NCBI GenBank assembly: GCA_029863065.1
Contig: JAOTWE010000003.1
Location: 1-36,941, forward strand
Reading direction: 5' to 3'
Length of the DNA stretch: 36,941 nt
DNA from: Betaproteobacteria bacterium
GTDB lineage: Bacteria > Pseudomonadota > Gammaproteobacteria > Burkholderiales > SG8-39
Below, piece after piece: positions 14,639 through 33,240 of the stretch. Made by a program: the position numbers and the translations under genes. Position 1 is the stretch's first letter; each line of letters begins with the position of its first letter. The notes beneath the pieces are model-generated. The model was not told the DNA's origin. It was given only the letters and a program-made list of their open reading frames with translations, and made no database searches.

Positions 14639-16639
14639 TCAGTGATCGCCCAGCCCCATCTTGATGTAGCCGGTGGGGCAGACGTCGGCGCAGATGTGGC
14701 AGCCGATGCACAGGTCGTAGTCGGTATAGACGTAGCGGCCCATCGTGGCCTCGGACTTGGGCGTGCGCTTGACCGCGACCTGCGGGCAATAGATCACGCA
14801 GTTGTCGCATTCGAAGCACATGCCGCAGCTCATGCAGCGCTTGGCCTCGTCCACCGCCTGCTTGTCGGTCAGGCCCACCATGCGCTCGGCGAAGTGCCCG
14901 AGCACCTCCTCGGCGGAAGGGCCGATCTCGGTGCGCTTGGTGCGCTCCTGGTAGGGGAAATGGCCGAGGAACAGCTCGTCGGACTTGCAGACCTCCGCGG
15001 CGCCGCGGTCCTCGTAGTTGTGGATGGCGAAGCCCCCCACCCCCTTGCCGGCGAGCGCGGTGCCGCGCAGTCCCTGGTCGATAAGGCGCGGGCCATTGGC
15101 CTCGGAGGATTCGTATTTCCCGGGCTCGAGGTTGACCTCGCGCAGCTTGTCGAGCAGGTTGAAATGGTGCACGTCGACCTTCGGCCGCTTCGCCATCTCC
15201 TTCTTGTTGAGATAGCGATCGATGCTGTCGGCCGCGATCGAGCCCTGGCCGATCACCGTGGTGAGCAGGTGCGGGCGGATGATGTCGCCGCAGGCGAAGA
15301 CGCCGGGGCGGTTCGGCAGCTGGTAGAACTTGTCGGCGGCGATCAGCCCCTTGCCGTTGTCGAGCTCTTCCATGCCGGTCAGGTCGCCTGCCTGTCCGAT
15401 CGCCACGACGATCAGATCGGCCTCGACGTCCATCTCGGTGCCGGGCTTCTCCTTGAAGTTGCCCTTGTCCCACTGCACCTCGATCAGCCGGAGCGCCTTG
15501 GCGCGACCGCTCTTCTCGTCGACGATCACCTTCTTGGGCAGGAGGTTCCCCTGGATCTTCACGCCCTCGCGCTGCGCGTCCTCGATCTCGTGCTTGGCAG
15601 CGTTCATCTCCTCGATCGGCTGCATGGACGTGAGCATCACGTCGGCGCCCTGGCGAGCAGCAAGCGTAGAGACGTCGTGCGCGGTGTGCCCCAGGACCAC
15701 GAATTCGGGCCGCTCGGTCTCCGTAGCGTCCTCGACGTAGCCCAGGCGCCGCGCCACCGACACCACGTCGACCGAGGTGTCGCCGCCGCCGACCACCACC
15801 ACGCGGCCGGCGACCGCCGCCAGGCGCCCCTGATTGAAGGCCTCGAGGAAGGCGACGCCGCTGATGCAGTTGGGCGCGTCGGCGCCCGGCACCTGCATCG
15901 GCTTTCCCGCCTTGCAGCCGAGGGCGAGCAGCACCGCGTCGTAGTCCTTTTCCAGGTCCTTCAGCGCCACGTCCTTGCCGATGCGCGTATTCAGGCGCAG
16001 CTCGACGCCCATGGCGATGATGCGGTTAATCTCGCCGTCGAGGTGCTTGCGCGGCAGGCGGTAGCCGGGCACGCCGTATTTCGCCATGCCGCCGAGTTCC
16101 GCATGATCCTCGAACAGGGTGACCGCGTGCCCCTTGCGGCGCAGTTGATACGCCGCGGACAGCCCCGCCGGGCCCCCGCCGACGATGGCGACGCGCTTGC
16201 CGGTCTCAGGCCCGGCCTGGAACGCAAAGTTCTGCTCCAGCGCGTAGTCGCCGATGTACTGCTCGACGGCGTTGATGCCGACGGTGTCCTCGATCTTGTT
16301 GCGGTTGCAGCCCGTCTGGCACGGCGCCGGGCACACGCGCCCCATCATCGACGGGAACGGATTGGCGTCGGTGGAGCGCCGGAACGCGTACTCCTGCATG
16401 CTCGTGTCCTTGGGCGCTTTTTCGACGCCGCGCACGATGTTGAGCCAGCCGCGGATGTCCTCGCCCGACGGGCAGCTCGCCTGGCACGGCGGCGTCTTGT
16501 GCACGTAGGTCGGGCACTTGTCGGACTCGTCGCCGCTGAAGATGCGCTCCTGCAGCGACTTCCACTCGTGATCGCCGTCCTTGAACTTGCGGAAGGTGTG
16601 CCCGCTCTTCGCTTCGGGCTTGGTCGCTGGCGCTGACAT
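14639..16639 (-). CDS. dsrL: DsrL, NAD(P)H:acceptor oxidoreductase (glutamate synthase small-subunit-like flavoprotein with C-terminal ferredoxin domain)
   Basis: GKRVAIVGGGPAGLSAAYQLRRKGHAVTLFE...GRVVVVGGGDTSVDVVSVARRLG...CMSCGMCFECDNCVIYCP...CIGCHICADVCPTGYI. Confidence 0.95.
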   Translation of the reverse strand: MSAPATKPEAKSGHTFRKFKDGDHEWKSLQERIFSGDESDKCPTYVHKTPPCQASCPSGEDIRGWLNIVRGVEKAPKDTSMQEYAFRRSTDANPFPSMMGRVCPAPCQTGCNRNKIEDTVGINAVEQYIGDYALEQNFAFQAGPETGKRVAIVGGGPAGLSAAYQLRRKGHAVTLFEDHAELGGMAKYGVPGYRLPRKHLDGEINRIIAMGVELRLNTRIGKDVALKDLEKDYDAVLLALGCKAGKPMQVPGADAPNCISGVAFLEAFNQGRLAAVAGRVVVVGGGDTSVDVVSVARRLGYVEDATETERPEFVVLGHTAHDVSTLAARQGADVMLTSMQPIEEMNAAKHEIEDAQREGVKIQGNLLPKKVIVDEKSGRAKALRLIEVQWDKGNFKEKPGTEMDVEADLIVVAIGQAGDLTGMEELDNGKGLIAADKFYQLPNRPGVFACGDIIRPHLLTTVIGQGSIAADSIDRYLNKKEMAKRPKVDVHHFNLLDKLREVNLEPGKYESSEANGPRLIDQGLRGTALAGKGVGGFAIHNYEDRGAAEVCKSDELFLGHFPYQERTKRTEIGPSAEEVLGHFAERMVGLTDKQAVDEAKRCMSCGMCFECDNCVIYCPQVAVKRTPKSEATMGRYVYTDYDLCIGCHICADVCPTGYIKMGLGDH

Positions 16640-16661
16640 GGCTATCTCCGGTTGAACCGCT

Positions 16662-18152
16662 TCATGGCTTCACACCCAGCACGATGGCGTTGCTCACCAG
16701 TCCGTGCACGCTGCCGATCATGTCCATGGGGTGCTTGTAGTAGGGCAGGACCTTGGTGAACTGGCTCTTGCAGATGGCGCAGATCGCAGCGAGGTAGTTG
16801 ACGCCGTGCTCGTCCACGACCTGCTGCAGCGCCTGCATGCGCGGCAGCGCGCCCTTCACGCGCAGCTCCACGAGGTCGTCGGTGAGCAGCCCGCCGCCGC
16901 CGCCGCAGCAGAAGGTGGCTTCGCCGATGCTCTCCGGGGCCATGTCGACGAAGCGCTCGACGCAGGCGCGGATGATGTCGCGCGGCATCGTGAACTGCCC
17001 GCCCGGCTGGTCGCCCATGCGCGAGCCGCGCGACACGTTGCAGGAATCGTGGAAGGTCACCACCTTGTCGGCGTTGGCGCTCTTGTCGAGCGTGAGCGCG
17101 CCGCGGCGGATGAGGTCCCAGGTCACCTCGCAGATGTGCTGCGGCGCCGGGTAGCGCGGGTCGAGGAAGTCGAACGGCCCGATGAGCGTGTTCCAGAAGC
17201 TGTAGGCGACGCGCCAGGCATGCCCGCACTCGCCCACCACGATGCGCTTCACGCCCAGCTCGAGCGCCGCCTCGCGGATGCGCTCGGCCACCTTCTGCAG
17301 ATTGTCGTGGTTGCCGATGAACAGCGAAAAGTTCGCCGCCTCGGAGGCGTGCGACGAGAGCGTCCACGAGATGCCCGCGGCATGAAACACCTTGGCGTAG
17401 CCGATCAGGCCGTCGATGTGCGGCTCGGCAAAAAAGTCGGCGCTCGGCGTGACGAGCAAGACTTCGGCGCCCTTCTCGTCGAGCGGGAAGCGCACGTCCA
17501 CCCCGGTCGCTTCCTTCACGTCTTCTTCCAGGCCGTCGAGCGTGTTGCGTAGCGCCGGCCCCGGCAGGCCGAGGTTGTTGCCGATCTTGTGCACCTTGGC
17601 GATGATCTCGTTCGAGTACTTCTGGCCGAGGCCGACGGCGTCCATGACGTCGCGCGCCGCCATCGTGATCTCGGCGGTGTCGATGCCGTACGGGCAGAAC
17701 ACCGCGCAGCGCCGGCACTCCGAGCACTGGTGGAAGTAGCCGTACCAGTCGTCGAGAACATCCTTGGTCATGTCGCGCGCGCCGACGAGCTTCGGGAAGT
17801 GCTTGCCGGCGAAGGTGTAGTAGCGCCGGTACACCGAGCGCAGCAGGTCCTGGCGCGCCACCGGCATGTTCTTCGGGTCGGCGGTGCCCAGGTAGTAGTG
17901 GCACTTGTCGGTGCAGGCGCCGCACTTGACGCACGCGTCGAGGAACACCTGCAGTGCACGTGACTGCGACACCAGCTCACCCAGCTTCGTCACCGCGACC
18001 TTTTCCCAGTCCGGCATCAGTTCGCCGGGAAAGCCGAGCGGCTTCTGGTGGTCGGGCTTGGCGGTGAACGGCTTGCTGTGCGCCATCGCGCCTTCGCGCA
18101 CGGCCGGAATCACCGGATATTCGCCCAGCGGCGGCGTCTCGAAATCGGCCAT
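16662..18152 (-). CDS. dsrK: DsrK, HdrD-like Fe-S catalytic subunit of the DsrMKJOP complex
   Basis: CVKCGACTDKCHYYLG, CSECRRCAVFCPYGID, FHDSCNVSRGSRMG, CCGGGGGLLTDD, AICAICKSQFTKVL. Confidence 0.96.
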   Translation of the reverse strand: MADFETPPLGEYPVIPAVREGAMAHSKPFTAKPDHQKPLGFPGELMPDWEKVAVTKLGELVSQSRALQVFLDACVKCGACTDKCHYYLGTADPKNMPVARQDLLRSVYRRYYTFAGKHFPKLVGARDMTKDVLDDWYGYFHQCSECRRCAVFCPYGIDTAEITMAARDVMDAVGLGQKYSNEIIAKVHKIGNNLGLPGPALRNTLDGLEEDVKEATGVDVRFPLDEKGAEVLLVTPSADFFAEPHIDGLIGYAKVFHAAGISWTLSSHASEAANFSLFIGNHDNLQKVAERIREAALELGVKRIVVGECGHAWRVAYSFWNTLIGPFDFLDPRYPAPQHICEVTWDLIRRGALTLDKSANADKVVTFHDSCNVSRGSRMGDQPGGQFTMPRDIIRACVERFVDMAPESIGEATFCCGGGGGLLTDDLVELRVKGALPRMQALQQVVDEHGVNYLAAICAICKSQFTKVLPYYKHPMDMIGSVHGLVSNAIVLGVKP

Positions 18153-18902
18153 TCAGCCTCCGCGCGCCCGCTCGACGCGCACGATGCGCGTCGACCAGCC
18201 CGCCACGTGCCGCTGCTCGCGCGCGTCGTCGACCTGGTTCAGGCTCGGGCTGAAGAACACCCCCGGCGCGTGCAGGAGCTTCGACACGGGAAAGACGATC
18301 ATCAGCGCCGCGACCAGCACGAGGTGCACGAGCAGCGCCGGGTCGGCGGGAAGCGCCCGCCAGTCGAAGACCATCAGCCCGAGGAAGAACGCCTTCAACG
18401 CGACGATGTCGGTGTGCGCGACGTACTTCATGGCGAGGCCGCTCGCGGCGATGGCGACGAGCAGCGCGAGCATCAGGTGGTCCGACGGGCTGCTGATGTA
18501 GCGCACGCGATCGACCAGAAAGCGCCGCGCCCAAAGTCCCGCGAGGCCGGCGAGCATGGCGAACCCCGCGTACACGCCGAACGGCTGCATCAGGTTGACC
18601 CAGCCCCACACCGGCTCGGTGAAATAGCGCAGGTGGCGCAACAGCACCAGCAGCAGCGCTGCGTGAAACGTCCAGCCGAACAGCCAGATCCACTTGTTGG
18701 ACCGGAACAGGGCGCGGAACAGCGTCACCTCGAGGAACATGCGCAGCACGACGCCGCCGCGCGTCGTCGGCGCCGGCGGGATCGGGATCTTCAGCGGCTG
18801 CGGGGTGCGCGCGTACACCCAGCACCGCCAGCCCACGCCGGCGACGAGCGCCGCCGCCGCGACGTAGAACAGCAGCGCGTAGATGAGGGTCAGCGCGGAC
18901 AC
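18153..18902 (-). CDS. dsrM: DsrM, NarI-like membrane cytochrome b subunit
   Basis: 249 aa multi-TM protein, WLFGWTFHAALLLVLLRHLRYFTEPV; immediately after dsrC and before dsrK. Confidence 0.94.
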   Translation of the reverse strand: MSALTLIYALLFYVAAAALVAGVGWRCWVYARTPQPLKIPIPPAPTTRGGVVLRMFLEVTLFRALFRSNKWIWLFGWTFHAALLLVLLRHLRYFTEPVWGWVNLMQPFGVYAGFAMLAGLAGLWARRFLVDRVRYISSPSDHLMLALLVAIAASGLAMKYVAHTDIVALKAFFLGLMVFDWRALPADPALLVHLVLVAALMIVFPVSKLLHAPGVFFSPSLNQVDDAREQRHVAGWSTRIVRVERARGG

Positions 18903-18918: not shown

Positions 18919-19251
18919 CTACACGCAGCCGGTCGGCTTGGGCAGCCCCGCGTACTTGCAGGCCTGCTTGGCGGGGCCGTACGGAAACAGCTCGTACAGG
19001 TACTTGCTGTTGCCCTTGTCCGCGCCGAGCTTCTTGCCGATGGCCTTGGTCAGCACGCGCACTGCCGGCGCGATCTGGTACTCGTCGTAGTACTCGCGCA
19101 GGAAGTTGAGCACTTCCCAGTGGTTCTGGGTCAGCTCGCAGCTGTCGAGCCGCGCCATTTCCTTCGCCACGTCCTCGCTCCAGTCGGTGCGGTTCGCGAG
19201 ATAGCCTTCCTCGTCGGTCTCGATGGTCTTGCCGTCCATTTCGATGGGCAT
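18919..19251 (-). CDS. dsrC: DsrC, canonical sulfur carrier with both C-terminal cysteines
   Basis: LFPYGPAKQACKYAGLPKPTGCV C-terminus with both conserved cysteines. Confidence 0.97.
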   Translation of the reverse strand: MPIEMDGKTIETDEEGYLANRTDWSEDVAKEMARLDSCELTQNHWEVLNFLREYYDEYQIAPAVRVLTKAIGKKLGADKGNSKYLYELFPYGPAKQACKYAGLPKPTGCV

Positions 19252-20364: not shown

Positions 20365-21459
20365 CTAGAAGCGGATGTGCGCCGAGGCGTTGAGGCTGTT
20401 CCTCGCGCCGCGCCAATTGTCGATGTGGAACTTGGTGAACGGCAGCCCCGTGAGCTCGAAAAAGCGCGGCCAGCCGATGCGCTCCACCCAGTCGCCGACG
20501 CGCTCCCAGTCGCGCGCATCCTTCTTGTACGTGTAGAGGATCTTCTTCACCACTGCGGCCACCTCGGGCCAGCGCGGCGGGTTGTTGGGCAGCCCGGCCG
20601 CCACCAGCTTCTGGAACATGGGCTTGGAGCGGGCGTTGGAATTCTTGCCGCCGACCCAGATGGCGAGCTTGGAATGCTCCGGGTCGTTGATCTGCATCGG
20701 CGGGCACGGCGGATAGCAGGCGCCGCAGCAGATGCATTTCTTCTCGTCCACCTCCAGCGAGGGCTTGCCGTTGACGATCGCCGGGCGGATCGCCGCCACC
20801 GGGCAGCGCGCCACCACGGAAGGGCGCTCGCACACGTTCGCCACGAGGTCGTGGTTGATCTTGGGGGGCTTGGTGTGCTGCACGTTGATCGCGATGTCGC
20901 CCTGGCCGCCGCAGTTGATCTGGCAGCAGGAGGTTGTGATGTGCACGCGGTTGGGCATCTCCTCCTTGATGAACTCTTCATACAGCTCGTCCATCAGCGA
21001 CTTCACCACGCCCGAGGCATCCGTCCCCGGGATGTCGCAGTGCAGCCAGCCCTGGGTGTGCGAGATCATGGTCACCGAGTTGCCGGTGCCGCCGACCGGG
21101 TAGCCCGCGTCGTTGAAGGCCTGGATCAGCGGGCCGACCTTGTCCCAGCTGGAGACCATCACCTCCAGGTTCGAGCGGATGGTGAATCGGACGAACCCCT
21201 CGCCGTACTTGTCGATGATGTCGCACAGCAGGTTGATCTCGTACGGACCGAGCTGGCGCTGCGTGCCGACGCGCACCGTCCAGATCTCGTCGCCCGAGTA
21301 GGCGACGTGGTGCAGCACGCCCGGGCGCGGTCGGTCGTGGTACTTCCAGTTGCCGAAGTTCTTGATCATCAGCGGATGCATGTACTGCATGCCGTCGGGA
21401 CACCCGCTCTCGATCGGCGCTCGCATCTGCTTCTTCTCGATTACCTGTGCTTGTGCCAC
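20365..21459 (-). CDS. dsrB: DsrB, dissimilatory sulfite reductase beta subunit (oxidative type by context)
   Basis: HITTSCCQINCGGQGDIAINVQHTKPPKI; CICCGACYPPCPPMQI; IESGCPDGMQYMHPLMIKNFGNWKYHDRPRPGVLHH. Confidence 0.97.
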   Translation of the reverse strand: MAQAQVIEKKQMRAPIESGCPDGMQYMHPLMIKNFGNWKYHDRPRPGVLHHVAYSGDEIWTVRVGTQRQLGPYEINLLCDIIDKYGEGFVRFTIRSNLEVMVSSWDKVGPLIQAFNDAGYPVGGTGNSVTMISHTQGWLHCDIPGTDASGVVKSLMDELYEEFIKEEMPNRVHITTSCCQINCGGQGDIAINVQHTKPPKINHDLVANVCERPSVVARCPVAAIRPAIVNGKPSLEVDEKKCICCGACYPPCPPMQINDPEHSKLAIWVGGKNSNARSKPMFQKLVAAGLPNNPPRWPEVAAVVKKILYTYKKDARDWERVGDWVERIGWPRFFELTGLPFTKFHIDNWRGARNSLNASAHIRF

Positions 21460-21480: not shown

Positions 21481-22785
21481 TCAGGCCGCCGACTTCTGCT
21501 GGCGATCGATCCACTTCTGCGCTTCCTTGTCCCAGTCGTCCAGGCGCACGTAGGAGCTGGTGCGCGGGTGCGTGATCATGTTCGGGTCGACCTCGACGCC
21601 GATGCCCTCGAGGAAGCTCGCCAGGCCGATGCGCTCGATCATTTCGCCGCAGCGCTCGTGCTCGAGGCCGTTCTCCGCCCAGAAATCGATCACCGTGGCG
21701 GCGAGCTCGCGCAGTTTCTCGTAGTCCTCGTCGGTCTCCATCTTCATGAACGGCACGATCACCGTGCCCATGGTGTCGCCGATCTTGAGTGTGCGCTTGC
21801 CGCCGATGAGCAGCGTGATGCCGCGGTCCTTGCCGGGCTTCAAGGCCTTGGTCATGACGTTGATGCAGTGCATGCAGCGCACGCAGCTCTTGTTGTCGAC
21901 TTCCAGCGTATCGTCGTCGTTGAGCGAGAGCGCCTTCGTCGGGCAGCGCGCGATCACGTTGTCGATCGTGTACTTGCGGCCGTGGCCCGCGACATATTCC
22001 TTCACGCCCTTCTGGTCGACCTGCATGTCGTCGCGCCAGGTGCCGATGACGGCGAAGTCGGCGCGCTGGATCGAGTTCATGCAGTCGTTGGGGCAGCCCG
22101 AGACCTTGAACTTGAACTTGTAGGGCAGCGCCGGGCGGTGCATGTCGTCGATGAAGTTGTTGACGAGCGTCCGGTGGATGCGGTGCTCGTTGGTGCACGA
22201 CTGCTCGCAGCGCGCCGCGCCGACGCAGGACATCGCGGTGCGCACGCAGGGGCCCGCGCCGCCCAGGTCGAAGCCGTACTCGTTGATCTCGTCGAAGAAA
22301 TGCTGCGTGTTCTCGCTCGTCGAGCCGATGAACATGATGTTGCCGGTCTGGCCGTGGAACGCGATCAGGCCGGAGCCCCACTTGCTCCACGAGCCCGAGA
22401 GCTGGCGCAGGAGCTTGGTCGTGTAGTGGTTGCCCGCCGGCGGCTGCACGCGCAGCGTATGAAATTCCTTGGACTCCGGGAACATGCTCGCCACTTCGGA
22501 AAAGCGCGGGATGATGCCGCCGCCATAGCCGAACACCGAGACGGTGCCGCCCTTCCAGTAGCCGAGGCGCGTCTTGTAGGAATGCTCGAGCTGGCCGAGC
22601 AGGTCGACCATCATGTTGTTGTCGTGCGCGAGGCGCTTCAGGCCGGTGACGAAGCTCGGCCAGGGGCCGCTCTCGAGCTGGTCGAGCATGGGCGTCGGAT
22701 GGAAGGCCTTGCTGGACTTCTTCTCCTTGGGCAAAAACGTGCTGTGCCGCTCAGGATTCTTGGGCGGCGTGCGGGCGTCGGACAT
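21481..22785 (-). CDS. dsrA: DsrA, dissimilatory sulfite reductase alpha subunit
   Basis: KRLAHDNNMMVDLLGQLEHSYKTRLGYWKGGTVSVFGYGGGIIPRF...CVGAARCEQSCTNEHRIHR...KVSGCPNDCMNSIQRADFAVIGTW; RBS GAGGAGGG just upstream. Confidence 0.98.
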   Translation of the reverse strand: MSDARTPPKNPERHSTFLPKEKKSSKAFHPTPMLDQLESGPWPSFVTGLKRLAHDNNMMVDLLGQLEHSYKTRLGYWKGGTVSVFGYGGGIIPRFSEVASMFPESKEFHTLRVQPPAGNHYTTKLLRQLSGSWSKWGSGLIAFHGQTGNIMFIGSTSENTQHFFDEINEYGFDLGGAGPCVRTAMSCVGAARCEQSCTNEHRIHRTLVNNFIDDMHRPALPYKFKFKVSGCPNDCMNSIQRADFAVIGTWRDDMQVDQKGVKEYVAGHGRKYTIDNVIARCPTKALSLNDDDTLEVDNKSCVRCMHCINVMTKALKPGKDRGITLLIGGKRTLKIGDTMGTVIVPFMKMETDEDYEKLRELAATVIDFWAENGLEHERCGEMIERIGLASFLEGIGVEVDPNMITHPRTSSYVRLDDWDKEAQKWIDRQQKSAA

Positions 22786-22939
22786 CGCTTCCCTCCTCAG
22801 GGTGCGGAATCGAACCCTGCAAGTGTAATGAGGACACCTTCCGCGCAGGCCTGAATTTGGGGATAGACCGCAACGGCCACCCTCCCCCTTTGGAGATATA
22901 GGGCTTGCTTATGACCCAAGCGGCGGCAAATGGGGTAGC

Positions 22940-23842
22940 GTGTCACGCGCCTTGATTGCCGTCCTGCAGAAAGAATCTCCTTACGACCTCGACCGGCCGC
23001 AGGCCTACCTGCGCTGGCGCGACGAGAAGCTCGCGCGCTACCCGCGAAGCGCCGAGGCGCTGATTGTGGAGGTACGCGACCCGCGGGCGTTGAGCGACAG
23101 CGAGGCCGCGCACATCCGCCGCGTGTGCGCCGCGGCGAACATGGCGGTCTACGCGAGCCCGCTCGCCGGCGTGGCCGACAAGGACATTCCGCGCCGTCTC
23201 GGCGCGCGGCTGGGCCTCGAGCGCCTTCAGGCCAACCCGCTCGCGGACGAGGACGGCATCAGCTCGCTCGAAGTGACGGCGGAAAAGTCCGGCCGGGGCT
23301 ACGTCCCGTACTCCAACCGGCGGCTGCTCTGGCACACCGACGGCTACTACAACCCGCCCGGGAGCCGCATCCGCGCCTTCCTCCTGCACTGCGTACGCCC
23401 CGCGGCCGCGGGCGGCGAGAACCGCCTGCTCGATCCGGAGATCGCCTACATCCTGTTGCGCGACGCCGATCCGCGATATGTCAGGGCGCTGTCGGCCCCG
23501 GACGCCATGACCGTGCCGGCGAACGAGGAGGATCCGACCTTGCAGCGCGCTGCGCAGACGGGCCCGGTCTTCTCCTTTGAAGACGGAGCGCTGCACATGC
23601 GCTACACCGCGCGCACGCGCAGCATCGAATGGCGACAGGACGCGGCCACGCAGGCCGCGGTGAAGCGCCTGCGCGAGATCCTCGACTCCGACTCGCCGTA
23701 CGTCTTCCGGCTGAGGCTCTCGGGCGGCCAGGGCCTGGTGTGCAACAACGTGCTGCACGATCGCAGCGAATTCACGGACGCGCCGGGCGCGAGCCGGCTG
23801 GTCTACCGCGCCCGTTACGCGGACCGCATCGGCCCGGCATGA
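22940..23842 (+). CDS. TauD/TfdA-family (gamma-butyrobetaine hydroxylase-like) 2OG-Fe(II) dioxygenase
   Basis: YVPYSNRRLLWHTDGYYNP (HxD), GLVCNNVLHDRSEF...RLVYRARY; likely GTG start. Confidence 0.8.
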   Translation: MSRALIAVLQKESPYDLDRPQAYLRWRDEKLARYPRSAEALIVEVRDPRALSDSEAAHIRRVCAAANMAVYASPLAGVADKDIPRRLGARLGLERLQANPLADEDGISSLEVTAEKSGRGYVPYSNRRLLWHTDGYYNPPGSRIRAFLLHCVRPAAAGGENRLLDPEIAYILLRDADPRYVRALSAPDAMTVPANEEDPTLQRAAQTGPVFSFEDGALHMRYTARTRSIEWRQDAATQAAVKRLREILDSDSPYVFRLRLSGGQGLVCNNVLHDRSEFTDAPGASRLVYRARYADRIGPA

Positions 23843-24561
23843 GGACCTTCCCGCTCAAGTACATCAAGGAAAGCGCCGCCGTCGGCAACGCCGACGACAG
23901 CAGCGACGCAGCTGAGGAGACCGGGAAGCTCAAGCGCCTGGTGGCCGGCGTGCGCGAGGAGCTCGAGGCGCTCTCCCCCGGCGCCGCGCCGCTGCGGCGC
24001 GCGGACCTTCTGCTGCAGCTCGGCCGCGCGCTCGTGCGGCTCGAGCAGCGCGCCGAGGCCTGGGCCGCCGCGCGCGAGGCGTTCGATTTCTACCTGGCCG
24101 AGCAGGCCTGGGAAGGCGCGGCGCAAGCCTGCGACATCCTGTTCCTCGCCGACCAGCCGCAATCGCTCGCCGCGCTCGGCCAAGGCATCTGGCTCGCGGT
24201 GACCTATCCGGTGGATCCCGAGCTGAGCGTCGCGCTGCTGCAGCACGTGGTGGACGAGACGCCGCCCGATGCCGACGGCGCGGCGGTGGCCGCCGTCACG
24301 GCCTGCTACCTCGTCGACCTGCGCGCGCAGGAGCCGCAGCGCGAACACCTGCTGCTCTACACCAACCAGGTGCTCGCCACGGTGGCGCGACGGCATAGCG
24401 GCGTCGACGGCCAGGATTCTTTCAACCGCTGGATCGAGGACATGGAGCTGAGCGACCCGGCGCTGTTCCTGCCGCGGCTGCGGAACGTGGTCGATGTCCT
24501 GGTGCAGGACGAGTGGTGGTTCGACCGCGATGCCCTGCAGGCGGCGCTGCCCGCGGACTGA
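23839..24561 (+). CDS. Conserved all-helical (TPR-like) hypothetical protein
   Basis: 240 aa, Ala/Leu-rich helical repeats (RRADLLLQLGRALVRLEQRAEAWAAAREAFDFYLAEQAWEGAAQACDILF); ATG overlaps the upstream stop; translationally coupled position. Confidence 0.72.
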   Translation: MRTFPLKYIKESAAVGNADDSSDAAEETGKLKRLVAGVREELEALSPGAAPLRRADLLLQLGRALVRLEQRAEAWAAAREAFDFYLAEQAWEGAAQACDILFLADQPQSLAALGQGIWLAVTYPVDPELSVALLQHVVDETPPDADGAAVAAVTACYLVDLRAQEPQREHLLLYTNQVLATVARRHSGVDGQDSFNRWIEDMELSDPALFLPRLRNVVDVLVQDEWWFDRDALQAALPAD

Positions 24562-24562
24562 G

Positions 24563-25213
24563 ATGGACGACGTCGTGGACGCGGTGTTCGCGATCGAGTG
24601 CCGCAGCCTGCCGGTCGATCATGCCTACGCGCTCTCCGCGGCGATCCAGGCGGCGCTGCCGTGGTTCGCGGACGAGCCGCAGGCCGGGCTGCACACCGTG
24701 CACGGCGCGGCTTCGGGCGCGGGCTGGGTGCGGCCCGAGGGCGAGGAGGCGGTGCTGCAGCTTTCCCGGCGCACGAGGCTCGTGCTGCGGCTCCCCGGGC
24801 ATCGCATGGCAGACGCGGCGGCGCTCACCGGGCAGACCCTGGATATCGCCGGCTGTCCGCTGCGCGTGGGCCGGCTGTCTACGCGCCCGCTCCTGCGCAT
24901 CGCGTCGCTCTTCTCGCGCAGCGTGATCTTCGAGGGCGCGGCCGACGAAGCGGCGTTCGTCGCCGCCGCGAACGAAGGACTGTGTGCGCTCGGCGTCTCG
25001 GCCTCGACGATGCTCTGCGGCCGCGAGGTCGCGCTCGCCACGCCGCAAGGTGCCTACCGCACGCGCAGCCTGATGCTGACGGTCGCGACGCCCGCGCAGT
25101 CTTTGCTGCTCCAGCGCCAAGGCCTGGGCGAGGCGCGCAAGCTCGGCTGCGGTGTCTTCATCCCCCACAAGGACGTCGGCGACCTGCGTCCCACGCCGCT
25201 GGAAGCTTTTTGA
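24563..25213 (+). CDS. Stand-alone Cas6-fold protein resembling type I-MYXAN Cas6/Cmx6
   Basis: VDHAYALSAAIQAALPWFADEPQAGLHTVHG...LRLPGHRMADAAALTGQTLDIAGCPLRVG...RPLLRIASLFSRSVI...GLGEARKLGCGVFIPHKDV; C-terminal G-h-G-x5-G-h-G loop as in Cas6. Confidence 0.75.
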   Translation: MDDVVDAVFAIECRSLPVDHAYALSAAIQAALPWFADEPQAGLHTVHGAASGAGWVRPEGEEAVLQLSRRTRLVLRLPGHRMADAAALTGQTLDIAGCPLRVGRLSTRPLLRIASLFSRSVIFEGAADEAAFVAAANEGLCALGVSASTMLCGREVALATPQGAYRTRSLMLTVATPAQSLLLQRQGLGEARKLGCGVFIPHKDVGDLRPTPLEAF

Positions 25214-25250: not shown

Positions 25251-25592
25251 ATGACGTACGAAGTGAACGGCAAGACCCTCGAGGCGACCGAGAACGGCTA
25301 CCTGGTGAACGCCGACGACTGGGACAAGGACGTCGCGCAGGCGATCGCCGCCGCGGAAGGGCTTTCACTCACCCAGGATCACTGGGACGTGATCGAGTAC
25401 CTGCGCGACGCCTGGTTCACCCACAACGGCGAGCAGCCCAACAACCGCGCCATCCTCAAGGCCATGCAGGACAAGTGGTCCGGGCGCAAGGTGGACAACA
25501 AGACGCTGTTCGATCTCTACCCGGGCAATCCATCCAAGCAGGCGGGCAAGGTCGCGGGGCTTCCCGAGAGCCTGCGCAAGGGCGGGTACTGA
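25251..25592 (+). CDS. DsrC/TusE-family protein lacking both C-terminal cysteines (RspA-like)
   Basis: VNGKTLEATENGYLVNADDWDKDVAQAIAAAEGLSLTQDHWDVIEYLRDAWF...NPSKQAGKVAGLPESLRKGGY; RBS aggagaaagg. Confidence 0.9.
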   Translation: MTYEVNGKTLEATENGYLVNADDWDKDVAQAIAAAEGLSLTQDHWDVIEYLRDAWFTHNGEQPNNRAILKAMQDKWSGRKVDNKTLFDLYPGNPSKQAGKVAGLPESLRKGGY

Positions 25593-25613: not shown

Positions 25614-26483
25614 TCACCTTTTCGGTCCACCCGGTCCGGATTGCGAGCCGCCTGCTGTCCCCAATCCGATGTCGCGGCGCTGATCGAACACGACGTAGGA
25701 GATGGGCGCCGTCGGCTCGTAGCCGATGCGCTTGCGACGCGATTCGGCGAGCAGGTGATAGCGTACCTGCGCCTCGATCGTCGCCGCGCGAGCAGGCACA
25801 TCAAGTGTGTAGCGTCGCCGCTCGCCCCACGCCAGGCGCGTATCCCAGAGATCCACGATGAACGGCCGCCACAGGATGGTGCGCTCAAGCGTATCGGTCG
25901 TCTCGCGCAACACCCGACCACCGGCATCGAGCGCGCGCAGTCGCACCGTCAGGTGGCGATCCGGGGTCCCTGTGGGAAGGAAATGCGCGGCGCCGGTGTT
26001 CTCCAGCACCAGCGCGGCGATGCGCCCGCCGCCAGAAGCGATTGAATCCGAAAACGAGGCAGTAAGAGCCGAGCGCACCATCTGCGGATCGTGTCCGCCG
26101 CGCCAGGTGTGACGGCGTACCAATCGCGCGCTGCCGCCTTCAACGAGCGGGCGCTCAAGCGCGGGCATGTGGCATTGCACGCAGCCCGCGGCGGCCGGAC
26201 TGCGCACCAGGTACTCCCCGCTGCGGCCTTTGAGGCGACCTTGCCCGACCTCGATCTCGGCAATGGTCCCGCAGGGCGGCAGGCGATAAAAAGTGTCCCA
26301 GCGCTCGCCTTGAACGACGTGGCAGCGCATGCACAAGGCATTGGCATCGGAGAACTTCTCGACCGGGTGCGGTGCGTTCGGGCTGCCCCTCGGCCCCAGA
26401 ATCCTGCCCTCGCGCAGATGGCAGCCGGCACAGGTGACGCCTTCCTGCTTCAGGGCCGGATCGAAATCCGGGTTCGGCGCGAG
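25614..26483 (-). pseudogene. Multiheme c-type cytochrome, 5'-truncated by an IS3-family insertion
   Basis: CAGCH, CMRCH, CVQCH in frame; host reading frame begins ...SLAPNPDFDP at the IS boundary with no start codon or leader on the host side; the IS boundary falls at 26484. Confidence 0.8.
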
Positions 26484-26511
26484 TGAACTGACCGGCCTTT
26501 TCTGTACCAGG
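26484..26511. repeat. IS left terminal inverted repeat
   Basis: tgaactgaccggccttttctgtaccagg; matches the reverse complement of 27704..27729 with a few mismatches and a 2-nt gap. Confidence 0.75.
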
Positions 26512-26552: not shown

Positions 26553-26831
26553 ATGGCACACAAGAAGTTCAGTCCCGAGCAGGTGGTGGCGAAGCTGCGG
26601 CAGATCGAAGTGCGGCAGGCAGGCGGGAAGTCTATTGCACAGGCGTGTAAAGATGCCGGGGTTACGGATGTCACGTACTACCGCTGGCGCAAGGAGTACG
26701 GGGGCCTGAAGGCCAACCAGGCGAAGAAGCTGAAGGATCTGGAGCGGGAGAATCAGAGGCTGAAGAAGCTGGTGGCGGACCTGTCCCTTGAGAAGGCGAT
26801 CCTGAAGGACGTGGCCGAGGGAAACTTCTAA
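26553..26831 (+). CDS. IS3-family transposase OrfA (HTH)
   Basis: [85 protein letters not shown]. Confidence 0.95.
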
Positions 26832-26854
26832 GCCCCGAGCGGCGGCGCAAGGCC

Positions 26855-27691
26855 GTGGCACATGCTCGGGGCAAATACGGGGTGTCGGAGAGAAAGGCCT
26901 GTGCGGTGCTTGCGCAGCCGCGCGGCACGCAGCGCTATGTACCAACGGTGCGTGCCAACGAGGACCTGCTTACGCAGGCGATTGTGGGTCTTGCCTGCCA
27001 GTACGGGCGCTACGGGTACCGGATGATCACGGGAATGCTCAAGCTGGGCGGCTGGCGCGTGGGCAAGGACCGGGTGAGCCGGATCTGGAGGAAGGAAGGG
27101 CTGAAGGTGCCCAAGAAGCAAAAGCCCCGAGCAAGGCTGTGGTTGAACGACGGCAGTTGCGTGCGGCTACGGGCCGAGCAGGCGAACCACGTTTGGAGCT
27201 ATGACTTCGTGACCACCTGGACCCATGACGGTCGGCCGGTTCGCCTGCTTACGCTGATCGATGAGCATACGCGGGAGTGCCTGGCGATCCTGGTGGCAAG
27301 GAGCATCGGCGCCCAGGAGGTGATTGAGCTCTTGGCCGAGGTCATGCTCACCAGAGGAATCCCCGAGCACATCCGCTCGGACAACGGCCCTGAATTCACC
27401 GCCAAAGCGCTACGCGAGTGGCTGCAGCGGATCGGCGCCAAGACGCTCTACATCGCACCAGGCAGTCCCTGGGAGAATGGCTACTGCGAGAGCTTCAACG
27501 GCACGCTCAGGGACGAACTGCTCAATGGCGAAATCTTCTACAGCCTGAACGAGGCTCGCATCGTGATCGAGCGCTGGCGCAGCGAATACAACCAGATCAG
27601 GCCCCACAGTTCGCTTGGCTACAGGCCGCCGGCACCGGCGGCCTGTAGCCCGCACCCTCTCATGCTCGCGCAGCCGGTGATGGTGCAGTAA
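26855..27691 (+). CDS. IS3-family transposase OrfB (DDE integrase catalytic domain); probably expressed by frameshift from orfA
   Basis: [33 protein letters not shown]...[18 protein letters not shown]...[57 protein letters not shown] (DDE). Confidence 0.95.
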
Positions 27692-31655: not shown

Positions 31656-32264
31656 ATGGCCATCCTCAGCAGCCGCCCGCAGATTGCGCTGGTCAAAACG
31701 CGCTGGCGCAAGAAGGGCGAGCGCACGCTCGCCGAGCGCGCCGGCGTCATCGGCGCCAACGTCTGGAAGATCGCGCTCGAGATCTTCAGGCACATGGAAA
31801 AGGAAGGCTTCCGCTTCGGCTCGGATCGGATGACGACCGAGGTGATCACCGAGTTCATCGCCTTTCTCGTCCAGCTCGCCGACCGCGCGGTGTACGGCAA
31901 ACTGAGCGAGGCCGAGCGTGCCGCGCTCATCGGCGAGGTGGTCCGGCACCTCGCGGCGACCATGGAGAACAATCAGCGCGACCTCGTCGGGCCCGGGGAA
32001 TACTGCAAGCCCTTCATCGACCGGCTCAACGAGCGCTTCGCGGAGTACGCCGGCTTCGAGTACCGCGGCGCGGAGCCGGGCTATCCCTGCCTGCGCTTTT
32101 TCGCCACCAAAGTCGCCGATGCCATGGCGGGCGGCGACAACAAGTGGGTGGTCGAGCAGATAATGGACATCGAGGCGCCGGAGATGGTGCGCCTCGTCGC
32201 GAAGCTCATCGAGCAGACGGTGGCAGCAGGGACGCCAGTGCCGCCTCGCGCGCAGCCGGGTTGA
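31656..32264 (+). CDS. Conserved hypothetical protein
   Basis: 202 aa with biased, protein-like composition: MAILSSRPQIALVKTRWRKKGERTLAERAGVIGANVWKIALEIFRHMEKEGFRFG. Confidence 0.7.
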   Translation: MAILSSRPQIALVKTRWRKKGERTLAERAGVIGANVWKIALEIFRHMEKEGFRFGSDRMTTEVITEFIAFLVQLADRAVYGKLSEAERAALIGEVVRHLAATMENNQRDLVGPGEYCKPFIDRLNERFAEYAGFEYRGAEPGYPCLRFFATKVADAMAGGDNKWVVEQIMDIEAPEMVRLVAKLIEQTVAAGTPVPPRAQPG

Positions 32265-33240
32265 GCGCGAGCAGGCCGCGCGCGCACTCCAGCCAGCGCT
32301 CTTTGCCCTCGCCCACGATGTGCCGCAGCCGCTCGAAGGAGCCGCAGCGCACATAATCCTCATAGGCCTCCAGCGCCTGCGGGAACAGCTGGCGGCGTGG
32401 CGCATCGAAGGTGGCGAAGTAGAAGTGCAGCGCCGGCAGGTTGGCGCGCTCGATGAGGCCCGGCAGCGTCGAGAGGCAGTCGGCCAGGAGGTCGCGCACG
32501 GCGCGTGCCACCGGCTCGTGGTGCGTGCGCGATAGCGAGAGCGCCATTTCGCCCCAGGCCTCGCCGAGCATCTCGCCCGCCATCGCCTCCCCGACCTCGT
32601 GCAGGATCATGGTCTCCATCTCGTGGTCGGCCATGCGCGCGAGCGCGCTTTCCGGGTCGGCGATGAAATCGTAGTGCGCCAGGGCGTGCGCCATGGGACC
32701 GCCCTGCTTGCGCCACTGCCACTCCTCGATCCTTTCCCACAGGTAGCGGCGCACCGACTCCAGGCGCACGAAGATGGTCCGCCCCTGCAGCATCGCCGGC
32801 GGCGCGGCGAGCTCGCGCGCGTACTCGCAGGAGGAGATGCGGATCGTGAAGCCGGCGCGCTCCTCTACGCGCAGCAGCTTGCCGAGGAAGAACATCGGCT
32901 TTTGCATGCGCCCGTAGCCCGCGCTGTAGACGCAGCCTTGCGGCAGCAGCTCGCGGTTGGCGGTTTCGGCATCGAACGGGTCGAGCGCGCCTGCGTGAAG
33001 CGGCAGCGGCGCGAATTGCTCGGCCTCGATCCGGTCCCAAGCCTGCTCGCGCGTCTTCAGCCAGTCGCCCAGTTCCTCCTTGGGCAGCGCGCGCGCGAAC
33101 GGCAGCTCGTTCTCCCAGCGGTAGTACTCGCGCATCTTCAGGAGAAAGGTGCACAGGCCATAGTCGCCCGCGTGGCGCGCATCGGAGATGTCGCAATTGC
33201 GCTGCACCACGCTCGCCAGTTGCGGAAGATTGCGCATCAT
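32206..33240 (-). CDS. Conserved hypothetical protein (possibly Sfum_1244-like family)
   Basis: 344 aa, MMRNLPQLASVVQRNCDISDARHAGDYGLCTFLLKMREYYRWENELPFARALPKEELGDWLKTREQAWDRIE; family name from memory only. Confidence 0.72.
   Translation of the reverse strand: MMRNLPQLASVVQRNCDISDARHAGDYGLCTFLLKMREYYRWENELPFARALPKEELGDWLKTREQAWDRIEAEQFAPLPLHAGALDPFDAETANRELLPQGCVYSAGYGRMQKPMFFLGKLLRVEERAGFTIRISSCEYARELAAPPAMLQGRTIFVRLESVRRYLWERIEEWQWRKQGGPMAHALAHYDFIADPESALARMADHEMETMILHEVGEAMAGEMLGEAWGEMALSLSRTHHEPVARAVRDLLADCLSTLPGLIERANLPALHFYFATFDAPRRQLFPQALEAYEDYVRCGSFERLRHIVGEGKERWLECARGLLALNPAAREAALASLLPPSAR

Follow-up and report, generated by a model that had tools for sequence, protein, structure and literature searches.

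The window, meaning the whole 36,941-nucleotide stretch of DNA analysed here, contains a dsr operon on the minus strand. From dsrA (21481..22785) the operon continues through dsrB (20365..21459), dsrE, dsrF, dsrH, and a canonical dsrC encoding both cysteines (18919..19251; product ending in KQACKYAGLPKPTGCV), and then through dsrM, dsrK, and dsrL (14639..18902). Divergent from dsrA, and sharing with it an intergenic region of 154 bp (22786-22939), is a cluster on the plus strand. This cluster opens with a TauD/TfdA-family 2-oxoglutarate/Fe(II) dioxygenase (22940..23842), followed by a TPR-like, all-helical protein of 240 aa (23839..24561), a Cas6/Cmx6-family protein of 216 aa (24563..25213), and DsrC2, a DsrC/TusE-fold paralogue without C-terminal cysteines (25251..25592; ending in ...SKQAGKVAGLPESLRKGGY). 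The genes are closely packed: the TauD stop and TPR start overlap as ATGA, the TPR and Cas6 genes are 1 nt apart, and 37 nt separate Cas6 from DsrC2. A preliminary description of this DNA had reported a tight plus-strand cluster, divergent from dsrA and upstream of a DsrC-fold gene, and this is the layout found, with the Cas6 gene in third place. The TPR protein has no match in Pfam or NCBIfam, and a fold search returned only weak helical-repeat matches, none with an E-value under 0.001. Sigma-70 and terminator sites were sought within the cluster, and none was found above chance.

An IS3-like transposase pair (rve/HTH_21; 26553-27691 and 25614-26500) lies right after DsrC2 and seems to have broken up a minus-strand gene for a CXXCH cytochrome. 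In Burkholderiales dsr loci a protein of ~200 aa without a Pfam family is found directly after DsrC2 (2446-3063 in L168 and 481-1089 in L171); judged by eye, a similar protein is encoded farther along in the window (31656-32264). A DUF6866 protein is also encoded near the dsr locus (32206-33240), with both domains matched at E-values below 1e-60.

The 216-aa product had been described as Cas6/Cmx6-like on the basis of short motifs, all of which are present in the plus-strand reading frame at 24563-25213. Profile searches bore out the assignment. The product matched the Pfam family PF09559 (‘Cas6 Crispr’) with an E-value of 1.5e-57 and 195 bits (cut-off 26.7), the NCBIfam model TIGR02807 (cas6_cmx6) with 125.5 bits (cut-off 98.85), and the PADLOC Cas6 profile with an E-value of 7.6e-56. 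Since proteins of this kind pass the TIGR02807 cut-off, they can be expected to receive the automatic name ‘type I-MYXAN Cas6/Cmx6’. By sequence, the closest solved structure is 8fcj_B, the Cas6 of a type I-B CRISPR-associated transposon (CAST), at 1.7e-12 with phmmer and 2.7e-28 with a profile. An AlphaFold2 model built with seventeen homologues (pLDDT 89.7, pTM 0.85) consists of two ferredoxin-like units, and its top Foldseek matches in the PDB were the Cas6 structures 8fcu/8fcj (E about 1e-16, best 8e-17; TM 0.78), followed by Pyrococcus furiosus Cas6, Cse3, and other Cas6 proteins. The similarity to P. furiosus Cas6 (3pkm, 3i4h) is confined to the double ferredoxin-like RAMP fold (TM about 0.6); that protein has a CRISPR function and no sequence similarity by phmmer or profile. 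The glycine-rich loop GLGEARKLGCGVF (residues 187-199), identified earlier as a C-terminal Cas6 signature, is kept across about 135 homologues, with GxGxxRxxGCGxF near-invariant. Profiles and structure, either of which could have told against the earlier assignment, thus gave strong matches, including the double ferredoxin-like fold, and confirm a genuine member of the Cas6/Cmx6 family.

We compared the dsr-linked proteins with eight cyanobacterial Cas6 relatives, seven from cas operons or CAST (including 8fcj) and an eighth from Gloeobacter with no cas neighbours. Both groups have D19-H20, R76, R119, Q184, and the loop G187-x-G...G195-C-G197-x-F199. Type I-MYXAN/I-B Cas6 (Cmx6; PF09559, TIGR02807, 8fcj_B) therefore has the fold, the glycine-rich loop, and His20 in helix 1 in common with our protein, but the dsr-linked form adds a near-invariant signature of H44, H47, a GW-RP insert (54-58), R70, E129, R168, and H202-K203, the last within its C-terminal FIPHK. 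H20 is found in 130 of the 134 aligned sequences and in seven of the eight comparison proteins, H44 in 125 of the 134, and R70 and R76 in all 134. By position, H20 and H44 would be catalytic-type histidines. His44 falls where the I-B CAST Cas6 has a His, and the catalytic His of P. furiosus Cas6 likewise lies near the end of the helix-strand unit of the first fold. Both histidines are present in the window protein and in 123 of the 134 sequences. The remaining eleven are missing one or both (two Thiobacillus rows, L012 and L013, are without either), so cleavage by this His pair cannot be universal. In a maximum-likelihood tree, a single branch (SH-aLRT 99) sets off every one of the 114 dsr-linked rows, a separation that comes from a quick method with eight comparison sequences and reaches only the CRISPR-linked Cas6 sampled. 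A dN/dS of about 0.24 against L001 (0.095/0.387) demonstrates purifying selection in this comparison of coding sequences. Pairwise distances of Cas6 track those of dsrA (r 0.56; for comparison, dsrA and dsrK give 0.59).

The association with dsr genes extends well beyond the window. In 369 genomes drawn evenly from its class, PF09559 Cas6 was present in 119, in one copy each, with one of the genes broken into two parts, and dsrA (TIGR02064) in 121. The two occurred together in 113 (Fisher p 1e-76, odds ratio about 570, with phylogeny handled by even sampling over families alone). Several of the genomes with dsrA and no Cas6 are incomplete or fragmented; in G207, which is 99% complete, the absence is apparently real. 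Cas6 is retained beside dsrA even in genomes of ~1-1.1 Mb (L129, L136, L143, L154, L158). No Cas6 was found among forty-eight dsrA-bearing genomes from one sample of the phylum outside the class, which means that reverse Dsr as such does not need it; it belongs to the beta/gammaproteobacterial dsr locus as an accessory of that lineage, not to reverse Dsr everywhere.

Gene order is likewise shared. A scan of genome contigs returned eighteen loci at 33-86% identity, all titled beta- or gammaproteobacteria, and most of them, where the contig was long enough, had dsrA divergent and DsrC2 directly downstream. Flanking DNA of up to 16 kb was then fetched around all 119 Cas6 genes. dsrA was found on 83 of the 119 pieces, always upstream and divergent, and DsrC2 on 95, of which 91 had it downstream on the same strand (median gap from Cas6 127 nt, counted between matched domains). 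Many of the remaining pieces stop short at a contig end. Where contigs allow, the layout is mostly the one seen in the window: Cas6 points away from dsrA, follows TauD- and TPR-like genes, and precedes DsrC2. Three further Burkholderiales from the wider phylum sample have the same dsrA-Cas6-DsrC2 arrangement. Linkage to dsr is thus general, not a local accident.

The Cas6 gene shows no such relationship to CRISPR. Cas1 was present in 133 of the 369 genomes, and in 50/119 genomes with Cas6 versus 83/250 without (p 0.11, no association). The genome from which the window comes (94% complete, with dsrA and one Cas6) had no match to Cas1 or to DevR/Cas7, and only helicase matches below the cut-off for Cas3. 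In the flanking pieces and in this genome, the dsr-linked gene lies outside any cas operon. A scan of the window and the dsr pieces for CRISPR arrays detected none except an unclassified three-copy repeat in L157, in agreement with the earlier remark that the window has no array; run on two CRISPR-linked Cas6 genes as positive controls, it picked up the arrays next to them. The repeat in L157 (from 15298) is a short one whose three copies are spaced as in a CRISPR, and a relocated Cas6 gene is nearby. The stand-alone setting first noted here holds across the class, where homologues were not found with I-MYXAN operons. The dsr-linked Cas6 is almost certainly not a CRISPR component, and differs from I-MYXAN/I-B Cas6 in its position outside a cas operon, the lack of an array nearby, its dsr linkage, and its separate branch. 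We also considered and rejected mobile cargo, as no phage record matched and the plasmid matches were cyanobacterial only.

DsrC2 scores as TusE/DsrC (TIGR03342), but the C-terminal carrier cysteine (CysA) is missing in 106 of 106 loci, and 99 of the 106 have neither cysteine; in the canonical DsrC of the same operons both are present in 77 of 79. The window DsrC2 has the DsrC fold without CysA and CysB, and so qualifies as RspA-type. The DsrC fold is there and the DsrC chemistry is not, as would suit a regulator or adaptor. RspA-type DsrC paralogues, without C-terminal cysteines, were reportedly proposed as a regulatory group by Venceslau and co-workers in 2014, and the likeness to them lies in this loss of CysA from every DsrC2 and of both cysteines from nearly all. 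A literature search covering few subscription journals found no description of a fixed pairing between such paralogues and a Cas6-family gene.

As a candidate Cas6 substrate shared among dsr mRNAs, intercistronic gaps were scanned for hairpins more stable than those of shuffled sequences. Only the dsrA-dsrB (mean z -2.7) and dsrC-dsrM (mean z -3.1) gaps were strongly structured, with GC-rich hairpins in loci that include L007, L055, L066, L082, and L087. These hairpins were rejected as a shared Cas6 repeat. The corresponding gaps in the window (21 and 16 nt) are too short to hold them, dsr loci without Cas6 carry them too, and hairpin similarity was no higher within genomes than between them (11.6 vs 12.0). 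The hairpins of the two gaps have no sequence in common and are possibly mRNA stabilizers or attenuators. According to a passage in PMC3397948 that cites Grimm et al. 2010, dsrEFH and dsrC transcripts of A. vinosum grown on sulfide are well above that of dsrA; the excess reported there would fit intra-operon RNA processing or post-transcriptional control, and separate promoters equally.

The company that the gene keeps, sulfur genes rather than CRISPR genes, makes it very probable that it was recruited to a new, putatively RNA-related job in sulfur metabolism. The reading we favour, tentatively and as somewhat short of probable, is that the protein binds RNA with its Cas6 fold, has probably remained an RNase, and would act post-transcriptionally in Dsr sulfur oxidation together with a cysteine-less DsrC. 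In the ancestor of the beta/gammaproteobacterial sulfur oxidizers, a Cas6/Cmx6-family protein would have been fixed as an accessory of the oxidative dsr system. It would bind structured RNA through the glycine-rich loop and an arginine-rich face, and in most lineages may still cut it, as suggested by His20, common to CRISPR Cmx6, and by His44 at the CAST His position. It would act on at least one Dsr-pathway transcript, and we would guess at dsr mRNA or a small RNA as the target. DsrC2, which cannot carry sulfur, could dock at the DsrC site, signal from there what state the Dsr machinery is in, and so set Cas6 activity, with the TPR protein perhaps as a scaffold. The broader proposal, of a Cas6 endoribonuclease domesticated outside CRISPR that together with a cysteine-less DsrC provides RNA-level control of dissimilatory sulfur oxidation and has been kept across beta/gammaproteobacterial sulfur oxidizers, we put forward with still more reserve.

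The nearest competitor keeps the RNA and drops the cutting: a regulator or chaperone with the Cas6 fold and loop would control how dsr mRNA is translated or how stable it is, by binding and nothing more. The greater invariance of the glycine-rich loop and of R70/R76 over the histidines points this way, as do the eleven sequences without H20, H44, or both, but the presence of both histidines in 123 of 134 suggests selection on them, and we regard this reading as unlikely, if a serious contender. The failure of the hairpin test to yield an RNA target bears on a different idea, in which the fold has been reused for a non-RNA role, for instance as a scaffold that holds DsrC2, the TPR protein, and the Dsr enzymes together, or as a metabolite sensor. 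All the partner genes (TauD, TPR, DsrC2) are protein- or metabolite-related, and E129, R168, W55, and H202-K203 are new relative to the CRISPR-linked Cas6 sampled. Set against these points, the RNA-binding hallmarks are kept (the loop, the arginines, and the His common to CRISPR Cmx6), and we consider such a reuse rather unlikely.

Two further proposals are weaker. One starts from the likeness of DsrEFH to TusBCD and of DsrC to TusE, proteins of tRNA 2-thiouridine synthesis: an RNA binder with the Cas6 fold could connect the sulfur relay with tRNA, in RNA thiolation or tRNA processing. The TIGR03342 score of DsrC2 would agree with this, and two moved loci (L159, L161) are, by eye, near RNase III- and era-like genes. 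The idea is nonetheless improbable, given that DsrC2 has no carrier cysteine and that Cas6 presence follows dsrA and not tRNA thiolation, which to our knowledge is near universal. An ordinary crRNA-processing Cas6 that serves CRISPR arrays in trans is what the family name and profiles would imply, and 50 of the 119 Cas6-bearing genomes do have a Cas1 match. This supply in trans was rejected because of the independence from cas1; it would also have to accommodate the sixty-nine Cas6-bearing genomes with no Cas1 match, a source genome with neither Cas1 nor DevR, the fixed dsr linkage, and a branch separate from that of the sampled CRISPR-linked Cas6. We give it almost no credence.

Within this class, the majority of ‘Cas6/Cmx6’ calls seem to mark genes of sulfur metabolism, so that CRISPR surveys are likely led astray by counting them. 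A full-text literature search that included papers on dsr evolution and CRISPR classification, with most subscription journals outside it, returned no mention of a dsr-linked Cas6. Should the RNA function be real, a Cas6 protein would have been retained for a purpose outside immunity, and dsr would be controlled in part at the level of RNA, which has not been suspected; the dsr pathway is itself of central importance in the sulfur cycle and in animal symbioses. Allochromatium vinosum is a model host with dsr genetics.

A few Cas6 genes are found in other settings. The relocated genes of L159 and L161 come from genomes of 1.5-1.6 Mb, and in both H44 is replaced by Phe and H20 is kept. In L094 and L096, the relocated gene is beside membrane proteins that by eye resemble sulfur transporters. 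Finally, a PF09559-type gene on plasmid pGMOR1 of Gloeobacter morelensis (L177, 3971-4762) has no cas genes around it but a member of the PAPS-reductase family, a cupin, and unknown genes, and is possibly a second non-CRISPR use of the family.
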